From the NCBI RefSeq assembly GCF_900141815.1, contig NZ_FQYR01000004.1, positions 496,001 through 560,000 of the forward strand: a stretch of 64,000 bases of DNA, read 5' to 3'. How positions within the stretch are numbered: position 1 is the stretch's first letter; every line of letters starts with the position of its first letter. A program made the translations under genes and the position numbers. This DNA comes from Rubritalea squalenifaciens DSM 18772. GTDB lineage: Bacteria; Verrucomicrobiota; Verrucomicrobiia; Verrucomicrobiales; Akkermansiaceae. Below the pieces are notes generated by a model. It was not told the origin of the DNA. It did no database searches and saw only the letters and a list, made by a program, of their open reading frames with translations. Positions 895 to 21,599 of the stretch are shown in pieces.

Positions 895-990
895 CCTGTG
901 TAGTTAGGGGGTGTTTGACTTTGGAGAACTCACACCATGGACCTCGTGAAAAATAGAGGTGTCCATGCAACTCATAACATAAACCCTGAG

Positions 991-3900
991 ATGAAAATAA
1001 AACACACACATTTGGTGGAGCCATTAGCTGCATTGGCAATGTGCTCCATGACTACAGGATTGTCTGCTGCTGACCCCTTTGAGGTCGTTATCATTCCGGA
1101 TAGTCAGCATTATTCGCATTTTATGGATGATGGTGGGCCGGATTTGTTTACCCATCAGACTTCCTGGATTCGCGATAATGTGACTAACAGTAACATCGCA
1201 TTCGTGACTCATGTGGGAGACGTGATTCATGATAATACCGGACTCTGGCCATATGCCAGTCAGGCCATGTCTCCTCTGGATGGAGCTGTTCCCTACAGCG
1301 TTACCTTCGGTAACCATGACAATGGTGAGCCCGGTCCATTTGCATCGAGCCGCTATCAATCGTACCCATGGTACATAGGTGCGAGTAGTGATAATCTGGC
1401 TCATGCCCAGACCTTCACGGCAGGAGGGATTACCTTTCTGCATATCAATGTACCACACGATGCGAACAATGCGCAGCTGACCTGGGCTCAGAGCATCATC
1501 ACGGCTAATCCAGGTAAGCCGACCATCATCACAACCCATGGCTATATGGCGGATAATACCTTTGGCCGTGCTACACGTGGTGAGAACATCTGGACGACTT
1601 TGGTGGAGCCTAATACGCAGGTGTTTATGACCTGTAATGGGCATGACTGGGTATCTCGTCACGAAGTGGATACTACGAATGACGGTAGAAAAATCCTCCA
1701 GATTCAGAGTAACTGGCAGCAAGTCATCAACGGTGGTAATGGCTTGTTACAGCGGGTTGTATTCGACCCAGATAATAGCAAGATCACGGTGAAGACCTAT
1801 TCGCCTTTCTTGGATTTATATCATACCGACTATTCGGGTGAGTTCAGTTACTCAGCCACAATGAGCAGTTCTGCGGTGGTGATTGGCAATGAACTGGGTG
1901 CGCCCAAGCGTACCTGGGATGATGGCGCCAAGAAAAACGACAACTGGCAAGACGCCGCAAACTGGGATGGTACTGCACCGTCTGCCGGGGATAGACTATT
2001 CTTTGGAGCGACTGGGAGTGGAAGCTCAGTGAATGACTTTACTGCGGGAACCGCATTCTCAGGAATCGTCTTCAATCCCGGGACTTTCTCTAACGGCTAC
2101 ACGCTTTCAGGAAATAAGGTCAACCTTACTGGGGACATCGTCAATATGGGAACCTATGGCTCCGGAGCAGGTTCCGGTCCAAAGATTAACTTTCCGATTG
2201 AGCTGATCGGTGACCGCCAGTTTAACACGGGTGACTGGGATATGACCGTGAATGGTGTAATCAGTGGCACTGGGTCACTGACTAAAACGCACGGACGAGA
2301 TTACTTTCGCGGGTCTTACGATGGCGGAGTCAACATTGGTGACCTGTATCTGACTCAGGTGAATACCTACACAGGTGACACCAGAGTGAGTGGCGGAGCG
2401 CTGATTCTGGACAACAATAGTTCGAATAACCTCATGCCCTCATCGCCCAATATCACATTGGATTTGAATGCGGTATTGAGAGTCGTTGACCTGCAGAATG
2501 GTACCTTTAACTTGGTCTCAGGCCAGACCCTTAGAGGGTCAGGAAAGGTCTCCGGTCATACCACGGCATCCAGTGGATCTACCCTGGCTCCGGGAAATGG
2601 TACTCAAACTGGACGCCTGAATCTATTTGGTGATTTGGCAATGAGTTCAGGTTCTTCATTGGATCTCGAGCTGGCAGGCAAGGATGATGGTAGTTATGAT
2701 CAAACCTCGATTCAGGGAACGGTGAATCTGGGGAGCGCTACCTTGAACCTCACCAGTCTTGCAGGCTATACACCAGCGATCGGTGATCAGTTGATCATTT
2801 TACAGAACGATGGAGTGGATGCGATTAGTGGAACCTTTACGAGTGGCAGTGGCTCCGACCTCACTCTGGGGACCGCGCTGGGTGAAGGTGTAGCAGTCAG
2901 CACCAATTTCCTGGGTAGTGGATACACCGCGCGTATCAGCTATGCGGGAGGCGATGGGAATGATGTGAGCATCGTTGTGCTTCCGCCTCCTGGAGCTCCA
3001 GTCTTTATCACTGATCCTATCGTGAAGACAGGAGCTGAACCTGGCACGGCCTTTGTTGCCTCTATTGCTGGCAGCTCTCTGGACGGTGACGGTGATACTC
3101 TAACCTACAGTAAGGTGAGTGGACCGTCTTGGTTGACTGTTTCTTCCAATGGCGATCTTTCGGGCACGCCTGGCGCTGGCGATGCTGGGACAAGCGTGCA
3201 GTTTACGGTACAAGTTTCCGATGGCAATGGAGGGAGTGATACGGCATTACTTCAGGTCGATGTTTTGCCTCTGGTTGGTCTTTGGAAGTTTGATGATCCG
3301 GCTGATTTAGCTAAAGCCAGTATCGGTCAGGACTTAGTGCTCACAGGAACAGATCAAGCTGTCGCAGGCTTTGATGCTGGTGATGGCGCCGCGAGAATTG
3401 GTGTGGGCAGTCATTATGCTCTTGCCAATACCATTGGAGCCAATGGTGGTGGTAGCTATACCAATGAATATACCTTGGTCTTTGATGTCAGCTATCCGGC
3501 CAGTAGCGAAAATAGCTGGATGAGTTTCTTCCAAACAGCACCTAACAATGGAAATGATGCGGACTGCTTTGTTCGCGGTTCTCAGGGAACGATTGGTGTT
3601 TCAGGCACTGGCTATAGTAGCTGGGTATTGCCTAAAGAGACCTGGGCTCGAATTTTTGTCAGTGTTGATAACGGTTCCTTCTATCGAATCTATGCCAATG
3701 GAAGTCAGATCCTTAATGGATCAATCCAGAGTGTGGATGGAACCTATGCGCTGGAGTCGACGCTTCTTCTGTTCGCAGATAACAATGGTGAAGATAACGC
3801 GATGGATGTGACCTCGGTGCGTCTGTTTGATCGTGCTTTGACTGCTGCTGAGTGTGCGGCTCTGGGTGGAGTGCCTAGTTCAACCAGCTCTTCGGACTCG

Positions 3901-4749
3901 GATGGTGACGGCCTCGATGATAGCTGGGAAATTACTCATTTCGGTAGTCTTGCTGTCTCTGATGGAACTGGGGATGCGGATAGTGATGGATTGGCAGATC
4001 TGGAGGAGTTTACCCTAGGGACTAATCCGAATGCAGCCGATAGTGATGGTGACGGCTACGGCGACGCACTAGAAGTGGCTGTAGGAACAGATCCACAGGA
4101 TAACCAAGACCAGCCGGCTGCTGCTTATGCGGGACTTGTTGGTTGGTGGAAGTTCGATGATGCTCAGGATCTCACCAAGGCGGCACTGGGTCAGGACTTG
4201 GGATTAGTGGGTAGTCACCAGACGGCCACTGGTTATGGTCCCGGTGATGGGGCCGCTCGTATCGGAGTGGGTAGTCACTATCAAATGACGCATGGCATCG
4301 GAGCCAATGGTGGAGGTAGTTATACCAATGAGTACACCTTGGTTCTGGATATTCGTTATCCAGCTAGCAGTGCCAATACTTGGATGAGTCTGTTCCAGAC
4401 TGCTTCCAGTAATGCTAACGATGGGGACTGCTTCATCAGGAACTCAAATGGCACCATCGGCCTCTCCGCTACAGGTTATAGTAGTTGGTCGCTGGCGTCT
4501 GATACCTGGGTGAGGCTCGTCGTTTCCGTGGACAATGGTTCTTCCTACAAGATCTATGCTGATGGAACTCAGATTCTCAATGGATCTACCCAGACGGTAG
4601 ACGGTAGATTTTCACTGGAATCTGTGCTGCTCCTGTTTGCAGATAACAACGGTGAAGACAACCCGATTGATGTGACCTCGGTCAGAATTTATGATCGGGC
4701 GCTAAATGCCACAGAGGCTGCTAATCTCGGTGATGTAGAAGGCTTCTAA
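991..4749 (+). CDS. Secreted metallophosphoesterase with beta-strand repeat, Ig-like, LamG-like and TSP3 modules
   Basis: About 1252 residues. An in-frame ATG at 937 exists, but the ATG at 991 opens directly into a signal peptide ending near LSAADPF, so 991 is preferred. Calcineurin-type phosphoesterase motifs follow within the first 280 residues: IPDSQHY, HVGDVIHD, FGNHD, THGYM and NGHDWVSRH. A beta-rich domain with an autotransporter-associated repeat signature (NTYTGDTRVSGGALIL) occupies roughly residues 310-690. Then come an Ig-like putative domain (near 700-770), a LamG-like domain, a thrombospondin-3-type Ca2+ segment (DSDGDGLDDSWE, DSDGDGYGDALE), and a second LamG-like domain. No C-terminal sorting tail is visible. 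The likely role is extracellular phosphoester or polymer degradation; the substrate is unknown. The next gene is a shorter paralogue. Confidence 0.85.
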   Translation: MKIKHTHLVEPLAALAMCSMTTGLSAADPFEVVIIPDSQHYSHFMDDGGPDLFTHQTSWIRDNVTNSNIAFVTHVGDVIHDNTGLWPYASQAMSPLDGAVPYSVTFGNHDNGEPGPFASSRYQSYPWYIGASSDNLAHAQTFTAGGITFLHINVPHDANNAQLTWAQSIITANPGKPTIITTHGYMADNTFGRATRGENIWTTLVEPNTQVFMTCNGHDWVSRHEVDTTNDGRKILQIQSNWQQVINGGNGLLQRVVFDPDNSKITVKTYSPFLDLYHTDYSGEFSYSATMSSSAVVIGNELGAPKRTWDDGAKKNDNWQDAANWDGTAPSAGDRLFFGATGSGSSVNDFTAGTAFSGIVFNPGTFSNGYTLSGNKVNLTGDIVNMGTYGSGAGSGPKINFPIELIGDRQFNTGDWDMTVNGVISGTGSLTKTHGRDYFRGSYDGGVNIGDLYLTQVNTYTGDTRVSGGALILDNNSSNNLMPSSPNITLDLNAVLRVVDLQNGTFNLVSGQTLRGSGKVSGHTTASSGSTLAPGNGTQTGRLNLFGDLAMSSGSSLDLELAGKDDGSYDQTSIQGTVNLGSATLNLTSLAGYTPAIGDQLIILQNDGVDAISGTFTSGSGSDLTLGTALGEGVAVSTNFLGSGYTARISYAGGDGNDVSIVVLPPPGAPVFITDPIVKTGAEPGTAFVASIAGSSLDGDGDTLTYSKVSGPSWLTVSSNGDLSGTPGAGDAGTSVQFTVQVSDGNGGSDTALLQVDVLPLVGLWKFDDPADLAKASIGQDLVLTGTDQAVAGFDAGDGAARIGVGSHYALANTIGANGGGSYTNEYTLVFDVSYPASSENSWMSFFQTAPNNGNDADCFVRGSQGTIGVSGTGYSSWVLPKETWARIFVSVDNGSFYRIYANGSQILNGSIQSVDGTYALESTLLLFADNNGEDNAMDVTSVRLFDRALTAAECAALGGVPSSTSSSDSDGDGLDDSWEITHFGSLAVSDGTGDADSDGLADLEEFTLGTNPNAADSDGDGYGDALEVAVGTDPQDNQDQPAAAYAGLVGWWKFDDAQDLTKAALGQDLGLVGSHQTATGYGPGDGAARIGVGSHYQMTHGIGANGGGSYTNEYTLVLDIRYPASSANTWMSLFQTASSNANDGDCFIRNSNGTIGLSATGYSSWSLASDTWVRLVVSVDNGSSYKIYADGTQILNGSTQTVDGRFSLESVLLLFADNNGEDNPIDVTSVRIYDRALNATEAANLGDVEGF

Positions 4750-18342: not shown

Positions 18343-19293
18343 GTGCATGATGCCGCGCAAATGAGCGCTGGCGAGTCCAAGAAGGTTGAGAAAACCGAAA
18401 CAGTTTCCCTGCAGAAGGATCTGATGGTCCTGACGAAGGTGAAATTGAATGTCTTCGTGCTGATTACCACGGTGTTTGGTTACGTGCTGGCGTCCAAGAC
18501 CTTCAGTGAGGCAGGGGCCTTCTGGAAGTCCTTTGATTTTCTGACTCTGTTCCACACTGTGCTGGGAACAGGCGCGGCGGCTTTTGGCTCTGCGGCTTTC
18601 AACCAGCTGATGGAGATTGAGCAGGACCGCAAGATGGGGCGTACCGCGAACCGGCCACTCCCAGCAGAGCGCATGAGTGTGACGACGGCCTTTGCAGTAG
18701 GTTTCGTTCTCTCTGCTTTTGGTGTGATTCATCTGGGGAACATGGTCAATGTTGGTGCTGCTTATTTGGCGGCCGGTACGATTGCCCTCTATGTATTCAT
18801 TTACACCCCGATGAAGCGACAGAGCTCTGCGAATACCTTGGTTGGTGCCGTGCCTGGTGCGATTCCTCCGGTCATTGGTTGGGCTGCGGCAGGTGGCAAT
18901 TGGTATGATCCGGCTGCCTGGTATCTCTTTGCCTTTCTTTTCCTGTGGCAGATGCCGCACTTTGTCGCCATCAACTGGTTTTGCCGCGAGCAATACGAAG
19001 AAGCAGGCTACGTCATGTGGTCCAATGGTGATGTGAGCGGGAAGAAGACTGCGAAACTGGCATTGATTTTCAGTATCCTGCTGACCTTGCTGTCTCCTTT
19101 GGCTCTTTTACCTGGTATTGAGTTTACCGGCTGGCTTTATGGTGTCGGTGGTACCTTGGCTGGTGTCTACATGTGCTGGCTGAGCATCGATTTTGGTAAA
19201 AAGGGAGATCGCCCGAGTTCCCGGAAGTTGTTCCTCTATACGCTCTTGTACCTTCCTTTGGTGCTGGGATTGCTTGCCATTAGTTGGAACTAG
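18343..19293 (+). CDS. ctaB: Protoheme IX farnesyltransferase (heme O synthase)
   Basis: 316-residue UbiA-type prenyltransferase with about eight to nine membrane segments. The active-site signature is NQLMEIEQDRKMGRTANRP, in which Glu replaces the first Asp of the usual DxxxD. Such substitution is seen in other CtaB groups. It converts heme B to heme O for heme-copper oxidases. GTG start at 18343 with a strong purine-rich site (AGGGGGAAGA) just upstream; an ATG at 18361 is less likely. It heads a cluster with two SCO-like proteins and a DUF420 protein, all pointing to cytochrome oxidase assembly. Confidence 0.94.
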   Translation: MHDAAQMSAGESKKVEKTETVSLQKDLMVLTKVKLNVFVLITTVFGYVLASKTFSEAGAFWKSFDFLTLFHTVLGTGAAAFGSAAFNQLMEIEQDRKMGRTANRPLPAERMSVTTAFAVGFVLSAFGVIHLGNMVNVGAAYLAAGTIALYVFIYTPMKRQSSANTLVGAVPGAIPPVIGWAAAGGNWYDPAAWYLFAFLFLWQMPHFVAINWFCREQYEEAGYVMWSNGDVSGKKTAKLALIFSILLTLLSPLALLPGIEFTGWLYGVGGTLAGVYMCWLSIDFGKKGDRPSSRKLFLYTLLYLPLVLGLLAISWN

Positions 19294-19297
19294 GGTT

Positions 19298-19339
19298 ATG
19301 TGCCTCTTGTGGCCGCTAAGGGCCGATGCAAATTTATGA
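19298..19339 (+). CDS. Possible 13-codon leader ORF before the SCO-like gene
   Basis: An ATG at 19298, five bases after the ctaB stop, opens a 13-codon frame (MCLLWPLRADANL). Its TGA stop overlaps the ATG at 19336 as ATGA. This would couple translation of the next gene to the leader. It may be chance, since the peptide itself has no recognisable features. Confidence 0.22.
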   Translation: MCLLWPLRADANL

Positions 19340-20226
19340 AAGCGACTGAATTGGAACCAGCCGAGCGCGATCCAAAGGCAATTCGCCGTACGGTGATTAT
19401 TCTCATTATCCTCATGATTGGTGGGGGTAGCCTCATTTGGTGGAAGTACCAGCAGAGTGAGAAAGAGAAGATGGTGGAGGTCGAAAAAGGGCGCTCACCG
19501 ATCATTGGTCGCCTGACCTCTAACTTTAAAGCGATTGCTCAGGATGGCAAGGCGAGGGACTTGTTTCAATTGGAAGGTAAGCTCTGGGTAGTAGCTCCTA
19601 TTGTTGCCAGCCAGCCTGAAGAGAATGAAGTGGTCTTCCGCGAGATGAAGCGTTTGGCGGATCACTATAAAGACGAAGAGCGTTTCCATCTTGTTTGTCT
19701 CTCCGTAGAAGATCCGAACAAGGTCGGCTACGAAAAGCTCGCCGAGGTAGCCGACAAGGTAGGGGCGGATATAGACCGCTGGTGGTTCCTGGCAGCCGAT
19801 CAGAAAGAGATCCGCGGCTATATGAAGGATAACCTGAAGATTGGCCTCGTCACTGAACACAAAGGAGATGATATCCAGAAATACGGGAAACTAGATGTTC
19901 CGGCCAAGCTGCGCATCGTGGATCAAAGCCGCCGCCTTCGTGGTAAGGTAGAGCATTACGATTTTGATATCGCTAAGAACATTGAGCTGAGAACCCGGGA
20001 TGAGATCGCTAAAGATCCCGAATTGGCGAAGCGTCCTGAGTCCGCAGTCTATCTCAATATGACCCAGGAGTTCCAAAAGCGTATGGTCAAGGTCATCGAC
20101 TACACGCTTGAGGAGAAAGAGAGTGACAAGGATCCAGACTACAAGACGGCTTTGCTGGTCGTGATCGCGATTGTTCTCTTTATCATCATTCAGGGCATCC
20201 GCTTGCGAAAGCGAGTAAATGGGTAA
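19336..20226 (+). CDS. SCO-like membrane-anchored protein lacking the metal-binding cysteines
   Basis: About 296 residues from the ATG at 19336; a GTG at 19300 would add 12 residues. It has a membrane anchor near the N-terminus (VIILIILMIGGGSLIWW), a thioredoxin-fold/SCO-like domain facing outside, and a second membrane helix near the C-terminus (ALLVVIAIVLFIIIQGI). The following gene aligns with it around VSLSVEDP/VTVDPEF and WWFL/WWML. Where the paralogue has CSMC, this protein reads VAPIVASQPEEN with no cysteine. It therefore cannot bind copper or do disulfide exchange in the usual way. A chaperone or scaffold role next to the second SCO-like protein is inferred. Confidence 0.7.
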   Translation: MKATELEPAERDPKAIRRTVIILIILMIGGGSLIWWKYQQSEKEKMVEVEKGRSPIIGRLTSNFKAIAQDGKARDLFQLEGKLWVVAPIVASQPEENEVVFREMKRLADHYKDEERFHLVCLSVEDPNKVGYEKLAEVADKVGADIDRWWFLAADQKEIRGYMKDNLKIGLVTEHKGDDIQKYGKLDVPAKLRIVDQSRRLRGKVEHYDFDIAKNIELRTRDEIAKDPELAKRPESAVYLNMTQEFQKRMVKVIDYTLEEKESDKDPDYKTALLVVIAIVLFIIIQGIRLRKRVNG

Positions 20227-20250: not shown

Positions 20251-20991
20251 ATGGAAAAACAGAACAAACAGATCGTCATGATTTACGCAGGGGTCGCTAT
20301 GATTGCGGTCGCCCTCGTAGTCGGCTTTGCCTTCATTGCTAAAGCGCGTAATCAACAGGCTCAAGAAAGTGAAGAAAGGCGACAGTCTCTCCGTCATCCG
20401 ATGATTGTGGAAACGATCCAGCCACTCACTGAACTGGACAAGCAATTGACTGAAGACCTGCGAGGTCGCAACCAAGATGGTGAAGAGGTAGGACTTTATG
20501 ACCTCAAAGGTAAAGTCGTGGTGTTTGCCCAGTTTTATAGCCGTTGCAGCATGTGCTTGGGTCACAACAGGATCATCATGCAGGATCTGCATGAGTCATT
20601 GCAGGGGAATCCAGATGTGCAGTTCGTCACGGTGACTGTGGATCCGGAGTTTGATTCACCGGAGAAGCTCAAGGAAATGGCCGAACTCTGGGGTGCGAAG
20701 AGCGACAGCTGGTGGATGCTCAACGTTCCCAAGGATAAGCTTGAGCCATACTGCCGTGAGCAAATGTGGTACGTCGATTTCAAGGAGAACGAGAACGCTA
20801 CAAGTATTGCTGATGGGATCATGCACGACATGGGAATCGCGGTGATTGATCCAACTTCCAAGATGCGAGCCAAGGTAAATCTCTATGAGTTGAAAGTGAA
20901 CGAAAAGGAAGACGAGTACCAAGCCCGTAAGGCTCAGCTTCTCGAGGTCATCGAAAATGCTCTGAAGGCAAAATCAACAGCCACAAACTAA
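20251..20991 (+). CDS. SCO1/SenC-like copper or redox protein with a CxxC site
   Basis: 246 residues, N-terminal membrane anchor (IYAGVAMIAVALVVGFAFIA), then a SCO-type thioredoxin fold. The metal/redox site is SRCSMCLGHN (Cys99, Cys102), a CxxC instead of the CxxxC of classical SCO proteins. A conserved His candidate is in GIMHDMGIAVID. SCO proteins deliver copper to or reduce the CuA site of cytochrome c oxidase. Its stop overlaps the ATG of the next gene as TAATG. It lies 24 bp after a Cys-less paralogue. Confidence 0.8.
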   Translation: MEKQNKQIVMIYAGVAMIAVALVVGFAFIAKARNQQAQESEERRQSLRHPMIVETIQPLTELDKQLTEDLRGRNQDGEEVGLYDLKGKVVVFAQFYSRCSMCLGHNRIIMQDLHESLQGNPDVQFVTVTVDPEFDSPEKLKEMAELWGAKSDSWWMLNVPKDKLEPYCREQMWYVDFKENENATSIADGIMHDMGIAVIDPTSKMRAKVNLYELKVNEKEDEYQARKAQLLEVIENALKAKSTATN

Positions 20992-21599
20992 TGTCTGAAT
21001 ACAAAGAGTATCTTCAGCGTAAGCCAAAGCTAGCTGAAGGGCGTAAGATGAAATGGGTAGCCTGGGTGCTGACTGCAGTAGTGCTCATTTTGGTCGGCAT
21101 GATGCGCAGACCTGAGCTCAAGTTTGCTTTGCCAGAGGGTGTCGAGTTCAGTTTTCTTCCGCCCATTCATGCTGCGCTGAATACCATCGTAGCGATGGCT
21201 TTGATGATTGCTGTCATGGCTATCAAGGCGAAGAAGGTGGTCTTGCACAAGCGTGCCATCGCAGTGGCGATGACTGCCTCAGTGCTGTTTTTGCTTTGCT
21301 ATGTGGCCTATCACTTCACCACCATGGAGACGATCTATGGTGATTTTGATAAGAATGGCAAAGTGGACGATATCGAGCTGGCTCGTGTAGGGATCATGCG
21401 TGGCGTCTACTTGATTGTCCTTTTCAGTCACATCGTTTTGGCGGGAGTTAGTCTGCCATTCATTCTCTATACATGGATCTACGGGATGACGAATCAGTTC
21501 GCCAAGCACAAGAAGATGGCGAAGTGGGTCTTTCCTGTCTGGCTCTACGTGGCAGTTACGGGGCCGGTTTGCTACTTTATGCTGAAGCCGTTTTACTAG
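20991..21599 (+). CDS. DUF420-family membrane protein with an EF-hand loop
   Basis: 202 residues, about five membrane segments. The pattern FLPPIHAALNTIVAMAL, followed by helices with YVAYHF and LFSHIVLAGVSLPF, matches DUF420 proteins, a family that includes the cytochrome aa3 maturation factor CtaM of staphylococci. A loop between helices carries DFDKNGKVDDIE (residues 118-129), a complete canonical EF-hand Ca2+ loop. Its ligands would be D118, D120, N122, D126 and E129, with Gly at position 6. I do not know this insertion from ordinary DUF420 members. Start overlaps the previous stop by one base. Confidence 0.8.
   Translation: MSEYKEYLQRKPKLAEGRKMKWVAWVLTAVVLILVGMMRRPELKFALPEGVEFSFLPPIHAALNTIVAMALMIAVMAIKAKKVVLHKRAIAVAMTASVLFLLCYVAYHFTTMETIYGDFDKNGKVDDIELARVGIMRGVYLIVLFSHIVLAGVSLPFILYTWIYGMTNQFAKHKKMAKWVFPVWLYVAVTGPVCYFMLKPFY

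Follow-up and report, generated by a model that had tools for sequence, protein, structure and literature searches.

A two-state, locally switching EF-hand-type loop in a subfamily of DUF420/CtaM-like membrane proteins

The DUF420/CtaM-like protein encoded in a 64,000-nucleotide stretch of the Rubritalea squalenifaciens DSM 18772 genome (contig NZ_FQYR01000004.1; the whole stretch analysed is hereafter called the window) carries a complete EF-hand-type loop between its third and fourth predicted membrane helices (TM3 and TM4). As judged by comparison with its relatives, this loop is one of two alternative states between which a DUF420 subfamily switches locally. No paper on an EF-type loop in DUF420 was found in the openly licensed PMC literature.

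The gene lies directly downstream of ctaB and two SCO-like genes, and the first base of its start codon is the last base of the stop codon of the SCO1/SenC-family gene preceding it. The features of this region, in window coordinates, are as follows.

18343..19293, + strand: ctaB, heme O synthase, neighbour (TIGR01473 above cut-off)
19300..20226, + strand: SCO-like protein lacking a cysteine pair, neighbour (SCO1-SenC match weak, E 0.027, under the Pfam cut-off)
20251..20991, + strand: SCO1/SenC-family protein with a CxxC pair (CSMC), neighbour
20991..21599, + strand: DUF420 (CtaM/YozB-like) membrane protein, 202 aa, five long predicted helices (ORF, Pfam profile, AlphaFold)
21237..21320, + strand: predicted membrane helix 3, residues 83-110, with His108 close to its outer end and His86 close to its inner end
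21342..21377, + strand: EF-hand-type 12-residue loop DFDKNGKVDDIE, residues 118-129
21345..21386, + strand: 14-residue insert dividing the long and short DUF420 forms, residues ~119-132, edges alignment-dependent
21369..21389, + strand: predicted exit helix, residues 127-133, beginning at loop position 10 (AlphaFold)
21393..21488, + strand: predicted membrane helix 4, residues 135-166, with His147

The window protein is matched by the PF04238 (DUF420) profile with an E value of 5.3e-38 and 130.7 bits, against a curated cut-off of 30.5, and the adjoining ctaB and SCO-like genes link it to heme A/oxidase assembly. Profile match and neighbours together bear out the DUF420/CtaM-like identity proposed in the initial annotation. 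In the alignment, positions 1-130 of the 130-position profile correspond to residues 56-198 of the protein (143 aa), indicating that it carries extra length outside the PF04238 consensus. Matches to COX1, COX2 and CtaA are present elsewhere in the same genome, and the window also contains what we take to be hisD, a name read from the ORF and not from a profile. The two upstream SCO-like proteins differ from each other in their cysteines, the first having no pair and the second a CxxC. SCO-like proteins at loci of the same family mostly carry CPxC, and CxxxC, the usual SCO spacing, was found at four Pirellulaceae loci (L061, L062, L066 and L071) as well as at L102 and L107.

The loop DFDKNGKVDDIE places oxygen ligands at EF-hand positions 1 (D118), 3 (D120), 5 (N122), 9 (D126) and 12 (E129), with G123 at position 6 and the hydrophobic V125 at position 8, confirming the full ligand set that had been noticed earlier. 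The loop is beyond chance. Across the six-frame stop-to-stop ORFs of at least 60 aa in the window, the strict EF pattern occurs once, in this loop, and it appeared in 0 of 200,000 shuffles of the window DUF420 protein, whose only four Asp residues all lie inside the loop. No Pfam EF-hand profile matched the window protein at E values up to 10, and EF-hand is absent among the 25 families listed, of 47 in all, when 16 long-form members were searched against Pfam. A canonical EF-hand domain was rejected because both an entry helix and a profile match are missing. A dockerin was also rejected, because the window protein has one strict motif only. Dockerin F-hands consist of a loop and an exit helix without an entry helix, occur as two repeats in a soluble module and bind cohesins; the window protein is alike in loop and exit helix, but has a single loop and is a membrane protein.

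To place the loop among its relatives, 233 loci were gathered with one DUF420 protein from each, and 210 distinct sequences were kept once identical cores and extractions shorter than 120 aa had been removed. In 205 of these sequences the TM3-TM4 loop comes in just two lengths: 35 residues, from Tyr107 through residue 141, in 92 sequences, and 21 residues, without the motif, in 113. The five sequences with other loop lengths are all from outer families. The long form equals the short form plus 14 residues at a single place. Position 12 is Glu and position 8 is L, V, I or M in all 92 long loops, position 1 is Asp in 90 (Asn and Glu in one each), position 3 is Asp/Asn in 90 (Ser in two), position 5 is Asp/Asn in 89 (Ser in two, Val in one), and position 6 is Gly in 71. 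Entropy in the 92 long loops is 0-1.2 bits at positions 1, 3, 5 and 12, and 2.1-3.1 bits at the non-ligand positions 2, 4, 7, 10 and 11. Since the ligand positions are fixed while the other positions drift, the long loop looks, from its pattern of conservation, like an EF-type calcium loop under selection. Among 38 long representatives below 70% identity, position 12 is Glu in 38 and position 1 is Asp in 36; among 16 below 60% identity, the corresponding counts are 16 and 14. The strict EF pattern fits 68 of the 92 long loops, the 24 misses being mostly due to a non-Gly residue at position 6, and the relaxed pattern fits 89, all except L010, L018 and L170. Position 1 has been lost in two distinct long loops, NLDADTALSEEE of L010, a congener of the window, and ETDGVKGLSDAE of L018, so the added length can outlive a ligand.

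In the survey of the window's family, a DUF420 match was found in 156 of 260 genomes, of which 135 were fetched and 134 had their loop read; fetching favoured long-looking matches, and hence the remaining 21 genomes were judged by match length. The loops that were read are 67 long and 67 short, and the unfetched genomes comprise 17 short by match length and four weak partial matches. The family total is therefore 67 long against 84 short (67 read and 17 by match length), with five genomes unread. Both forms were read within four genera, including Rubritalea (g1; two long with the window included, nine short and one not covered), g7 (seven long, 11 short), g12 (two long, two short, and nine more short by match length) and g13 (15 long, 34 short, and two more short by match length). 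Among readable genomes, the long form only is present in g9 (23 genomes), g16 (12), g6 (three), g8 (two) and g2 (one). Of the 16 genera of the family that were sampled, g3 is the sole one without any DUF420 match.

The initial annotation had held that a loop not conserved in close relatives would speak against its reading. Within the genus this is indeed the case, as nine of the 11 readable Rubritalea genomes (window included) have no loop and L010 has lost its position 1 ligand. In the wider set the objection is overturned, because a loop with the same ligands recurs in 67 genomes of the family and in Bacteroidota. Going by taxon labels, which may be wrong for metagenome bins (the titles of Lewinella sp. 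W8 and Neolewinella maritima mark them as isolates), the forms are seven long and 14 short at Saprospiraceae loci (two not extracted), four long at Lewinellaceae loci, one long each at Crocinitomicaceae and Flavobacteriales loci, two long and five short in Bacteroidota without a family name, and one short each at Chitinophagales and Saprospirales loci, the Bacteroidota sample being the best 80 loci of one scan and the ratio of forms in it not a census. Opitutales- or Opitutia-labelled loci are four long, and the Pirellulaceae loci are four short.

In a phylum-wide Verrucomicrobiota sample of 337 genomes, 105 have DUF420, and 91 of these are outside the family. The match spans the loop in 75 of the 91, with the expected short-loop length in 58; the 17 remaining matches and three more were fetched and their loops read, and the motif was found in none. 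The other 16 matches break up at the loop, and the stretch between their pieces is 12-14 residues shorter than in the long-form profile. No long loop was thus seen in this sample outside the family. Since the Pfam consensus is short as well, and no motif was seen in the outside-family genomes of this sample, comparison of the sequences indicates that the short loop is the DUF420 norm and the long loop most likely derived. The same two observations uphold the earlier remark that ordinary DUF420 proteins have no such loop.

The mixed distribution was followed on trees. On a 199-row tree built by a quick method from 174 columns, with the loop columns removed, at least 20 form changes were counted, a figure that is likely inflated, as many nodes of this tree are weakly supported. 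A tree built with more care from 49 g7 and g13 sequences, a group picked after the first tree had been seen and with the short g13 sequences thinned to 15, gave seven form changes and rejected a single long clade (p 0.017). Seventeen long-short pairs with separate paths can be drawn. In the closest case, the long L147 compared with the short L264 and L265, identity along the flanking genes was mostly 74-93% per segment, and in the segment containing the loop it was 64-65%, the lowest inside the stretch, with the outer ends of the alignment as low or lower. The same segment is 92% identical between L264 and L265, both short, and a finer-scale comparison gave the same local drop at the loop. On these alignments, the form switch between L147 and L264/L265 is local. 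Whole-gene transfer as the origin of mixed forms is not favoured in this case, because the flanks are similar and identity is low at the loop. At a larger scale, the DUF420 subfamily has likely moved between phyla by transfer; in similarity to the window protein, the Bacteroidota loci are roughly on a par with many members of the family and surpass most, though not all, same-order genomes of other families.

The residues beside the loop differ between the forms as well. At residue 141, 84 of 91 long sequences carry Leu, and 81 of 108 short ones carry Phe. Sixteen close long-short pairs were set against 86 long-long and 58 short-short pairs with comparable overall divergence. The flanks of the long-short pairs differ in amino acids by 0.56 on the 5′ side and 0.49 on the 3′ side, those of the same-form pairs by 0.13-0.29, a ratio of 1.7 to 4.2, with the reservation that the pairs are not independent. 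Far from the loop, the difference is 0.15 in long-short pairs versus 0.12 and 0.13 in same-form pairs. Where the residue is the same, codons in long-short pairs differ by 0.43 and 0.54 beside the loop versus 0.39 far away; in same-form pairs, the value beside the loop is 0.31-0.43. The clustered changes in the flanks may reflect exchange of a small segment or co-adaptation with the loop, and the best reading of the whole is that the loop has been gained, lost or swapped locally.

The AlphaFold prediction for the window protein with 55 relatives (pLDDT 96.5, pTM 0.90) gives helices at residues 3-8, 14-38, 56-79, 83-110, 127-133, 135-166 and 170-201, of which five are long, in keeping with a multi-pass membrane protein whose membrane insertion is read from the sequence. 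The short form of R. profundi is predicted to have helices at residues 3-8, 14-38, 57-80, 84-111, 122-153 and 157-188 (pLDDT 94.8). In these models, the long and short forms share one scaffold, and only the TM3-TM4 linker differs. Helix 3 stops at residue 110, seven residues ahead of the loop, leaving no entry helix directly before it; loop position 10 is where the predicted exit helix begins, which is also the case in EF-hands and dockerins. Four His residues are conserved among the 210 sequences, His86 and His147 in all, His173 in 209 and His108 in 208. Going by the predicted helix boundaries, His86 and His173 lie close to the inner ends, and the outer part holds His108 and His147. Mean K+R counts in 91 long forms are 4.2 in the N-terminus, 4.0 in loop 2 and 3.9 in loop 4; loop 1 averages 2.5 and the EF loop 2.7. 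Read by the positive-inside rule, these counts, from which alone the membrane topology was derived, put the EF loop probably outside the membrane.

Foldseek returned no fold relatives at E values up to 1e-3. With VIA-align, the four-helix part of the window protein (residues 54-202) gave Z up to 10.6 for COX3 (rmsd 4.5) and 7.8 for cytochrome b561 (rmsd 3.2), a likeness that is not significant, as helical bundles can attain such Z values through their arrangement alone; this weak likeness is a lead on the role of CtaM. A sequence profile search of the PDB yielded 13 weak hits, the best at E 0.0017 and most of them to GPCR constructs; they were taken as chance due to membrane composition.

The best explanation, and one that we regard as reasonably probable, is that the long loop serves as a structural site for Ca2+, in the form of a half EF-hand that caps a copper/oxidase assembly factor on its outer face. 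The extracytoplasmic turn between helices 3 and 4 would have been lengthened by 14 residues into a Dx[DN]xDG or half EF-hand loop, that is, a loop and exit helix without the usual entry helix, which would keep a single Ca2+ bound nearly all the time on the outer side, where this ion is abundant. The bound ion would stiffen a cap above the outer end of the helix bundle, near His108 and His147 in sequence, so that the outer face would keep the shape it needs to handle metals or partners together with the SCO-like proteins encoded alongside. We infer both Ca2+ as the ligand and the structural role of the loop. The suggestion in the initial annotation that the loop could make oxidase assembly Ca2+-dependent found no support. 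Short-loop orthologues in the family have the same SCO-like neighbours and the same predicted scaffold. The loop is therefore dispensable on the evolutionary scale, favouring a structural role over a switch.

Alternatively, the acidic loop might mainly contact a partner, such as an SCO-like protein or an oxidase subunit, or be a site for another metal, with Ca2+ being incidental. In agreement with this, the TM3-TM4 loop has a mean of 5.9 acidic residues in long forms versus 1.7 in short forms, and the flanking residues change along with the loop. However, near-fixed residues are found only at the EF ligand positions and position 8, whereas a docking surface should conserve exposed non-ligand residues, and none of the five genes sought in the DUF420 neighbourhood (ctaB, two SCO-like genes, DUF420 and hisD) tracks loop form within the family, making this alternative unlikely. 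Slightly less likely still is a regulatory role, in which the loop would act as a sensor of external Ca2+ and put copper handling or oxidase assembly under Ca2+ control. The loop is absent in 84 of the 151 sampled family genomes with the gene, more than half, with the same SCO-like neighbours where checked, which argues against an essential Ca2+ switch. The window protein, moreover, has a single loop, while EF-hand sensors usually use paired loops, and external Ca2+ is normally not a fast-changing signal. On the other side, the ligand set is complete and conserved, the loop is near the conserved His108 and His147 in sequence, and such roles are known for other Dx[DN]xDG loops, according to passages of PMC3123361. 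A signalling role for the loop has no support so far.

A more elaborate and rather improbable reading is that related bacteria exchange a calcium-binding cassette, comprising the loop with some ten flanking residues at either end, as a single unit, with its Ca2+ occupancy gating or tuning copper delivery to the respiratory oxidase; if this were true, external calcium or the state of the envelope would be linked to assembly of the respiratory chain. An acidic insertion that arose at random and merely resembles an EF-hand is highly improbable and, as an account of the whole set, refuted, since the patchy presence of the loop and the two copies with a lost ligand would suit it, but the near fixation of ligands in the 38 representatives below 70% identity and at loci of two phyla, and the outcome of the shuffles, do not, although it could still hold for single eroded copies.

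The structural calcium site proposed here can be set beside known systems. CtaM is described as needed for aa3/caa3 oxidases in Bacillota, and proposals for its biochemical role include copper export to Sco, CuB assembly and another late step (passages of PMC13344008 and PMC9145763); a passage of PMC4958251 also bears on its role in oxidase/copper assembly. DUF420 has been proposed as ancestral to heme A synthase (in part of PMC8239418), which is disputed in a passage of PMC12808453. CtaM/YozB of Bacillus and Staphylococcus belong to the same Pfam family, PF04238, and have several membrane helices, and the S. aureus CtaM gene is next to ctaB, as in the window; they differ in that the Pfam consensus is short in the TM3-TM4 loop, whereas the window protein is long. 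The word calcium is absent from the main text of PMC9145763, and the passages of PMC13344008 consulted here mention no calcium loop.

The window loop resembles the Dx[DN]xDG calcium loops treated in passages of PMC3123361 in ligand spacing and in its probable extracytoplasmic setting. It differs in lying between two membrane helices of a DUF420 protein, a setting that those passages do not name. Homologues switching between short motif-less and longer Dx[DN]xDG loops are described there in general, and the authors call their own trees of limited use for tracing the origin of the motif. The DUF420 subfamily provides a densely sampled case of such a loop appearing and disappearing inside one protein family, and the presence or absence of the loop in closely related backgrounds offers ready matched pairs. 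In addition, a natural site of putative calcium type in the outer turn of CtaM marks this turn as a place where structure matters.

Some further observations were made in the same genome. Between COX1 and COX2, a 573-aa ORF (L276:8100-9821) reads like a COX3 into which a charged stretch, several hundred residues long, has been inserted between the first and the last membrane segment. The window itself encodes, at 937..4749, a large protein of secreted type; around residues 1010-1070 it has Asp-rich repeats of the DSDGDG type, which resemble thrombospondin type 3 repeats and give a weak NCBIfam match below the cut-off. The only two Pfam EF-hand_5 matches of the genome at E values up to 0.001 (L274 and L275; G000:C5 near 375 kb) are located about 14 kb from the oxidase gene COX2.
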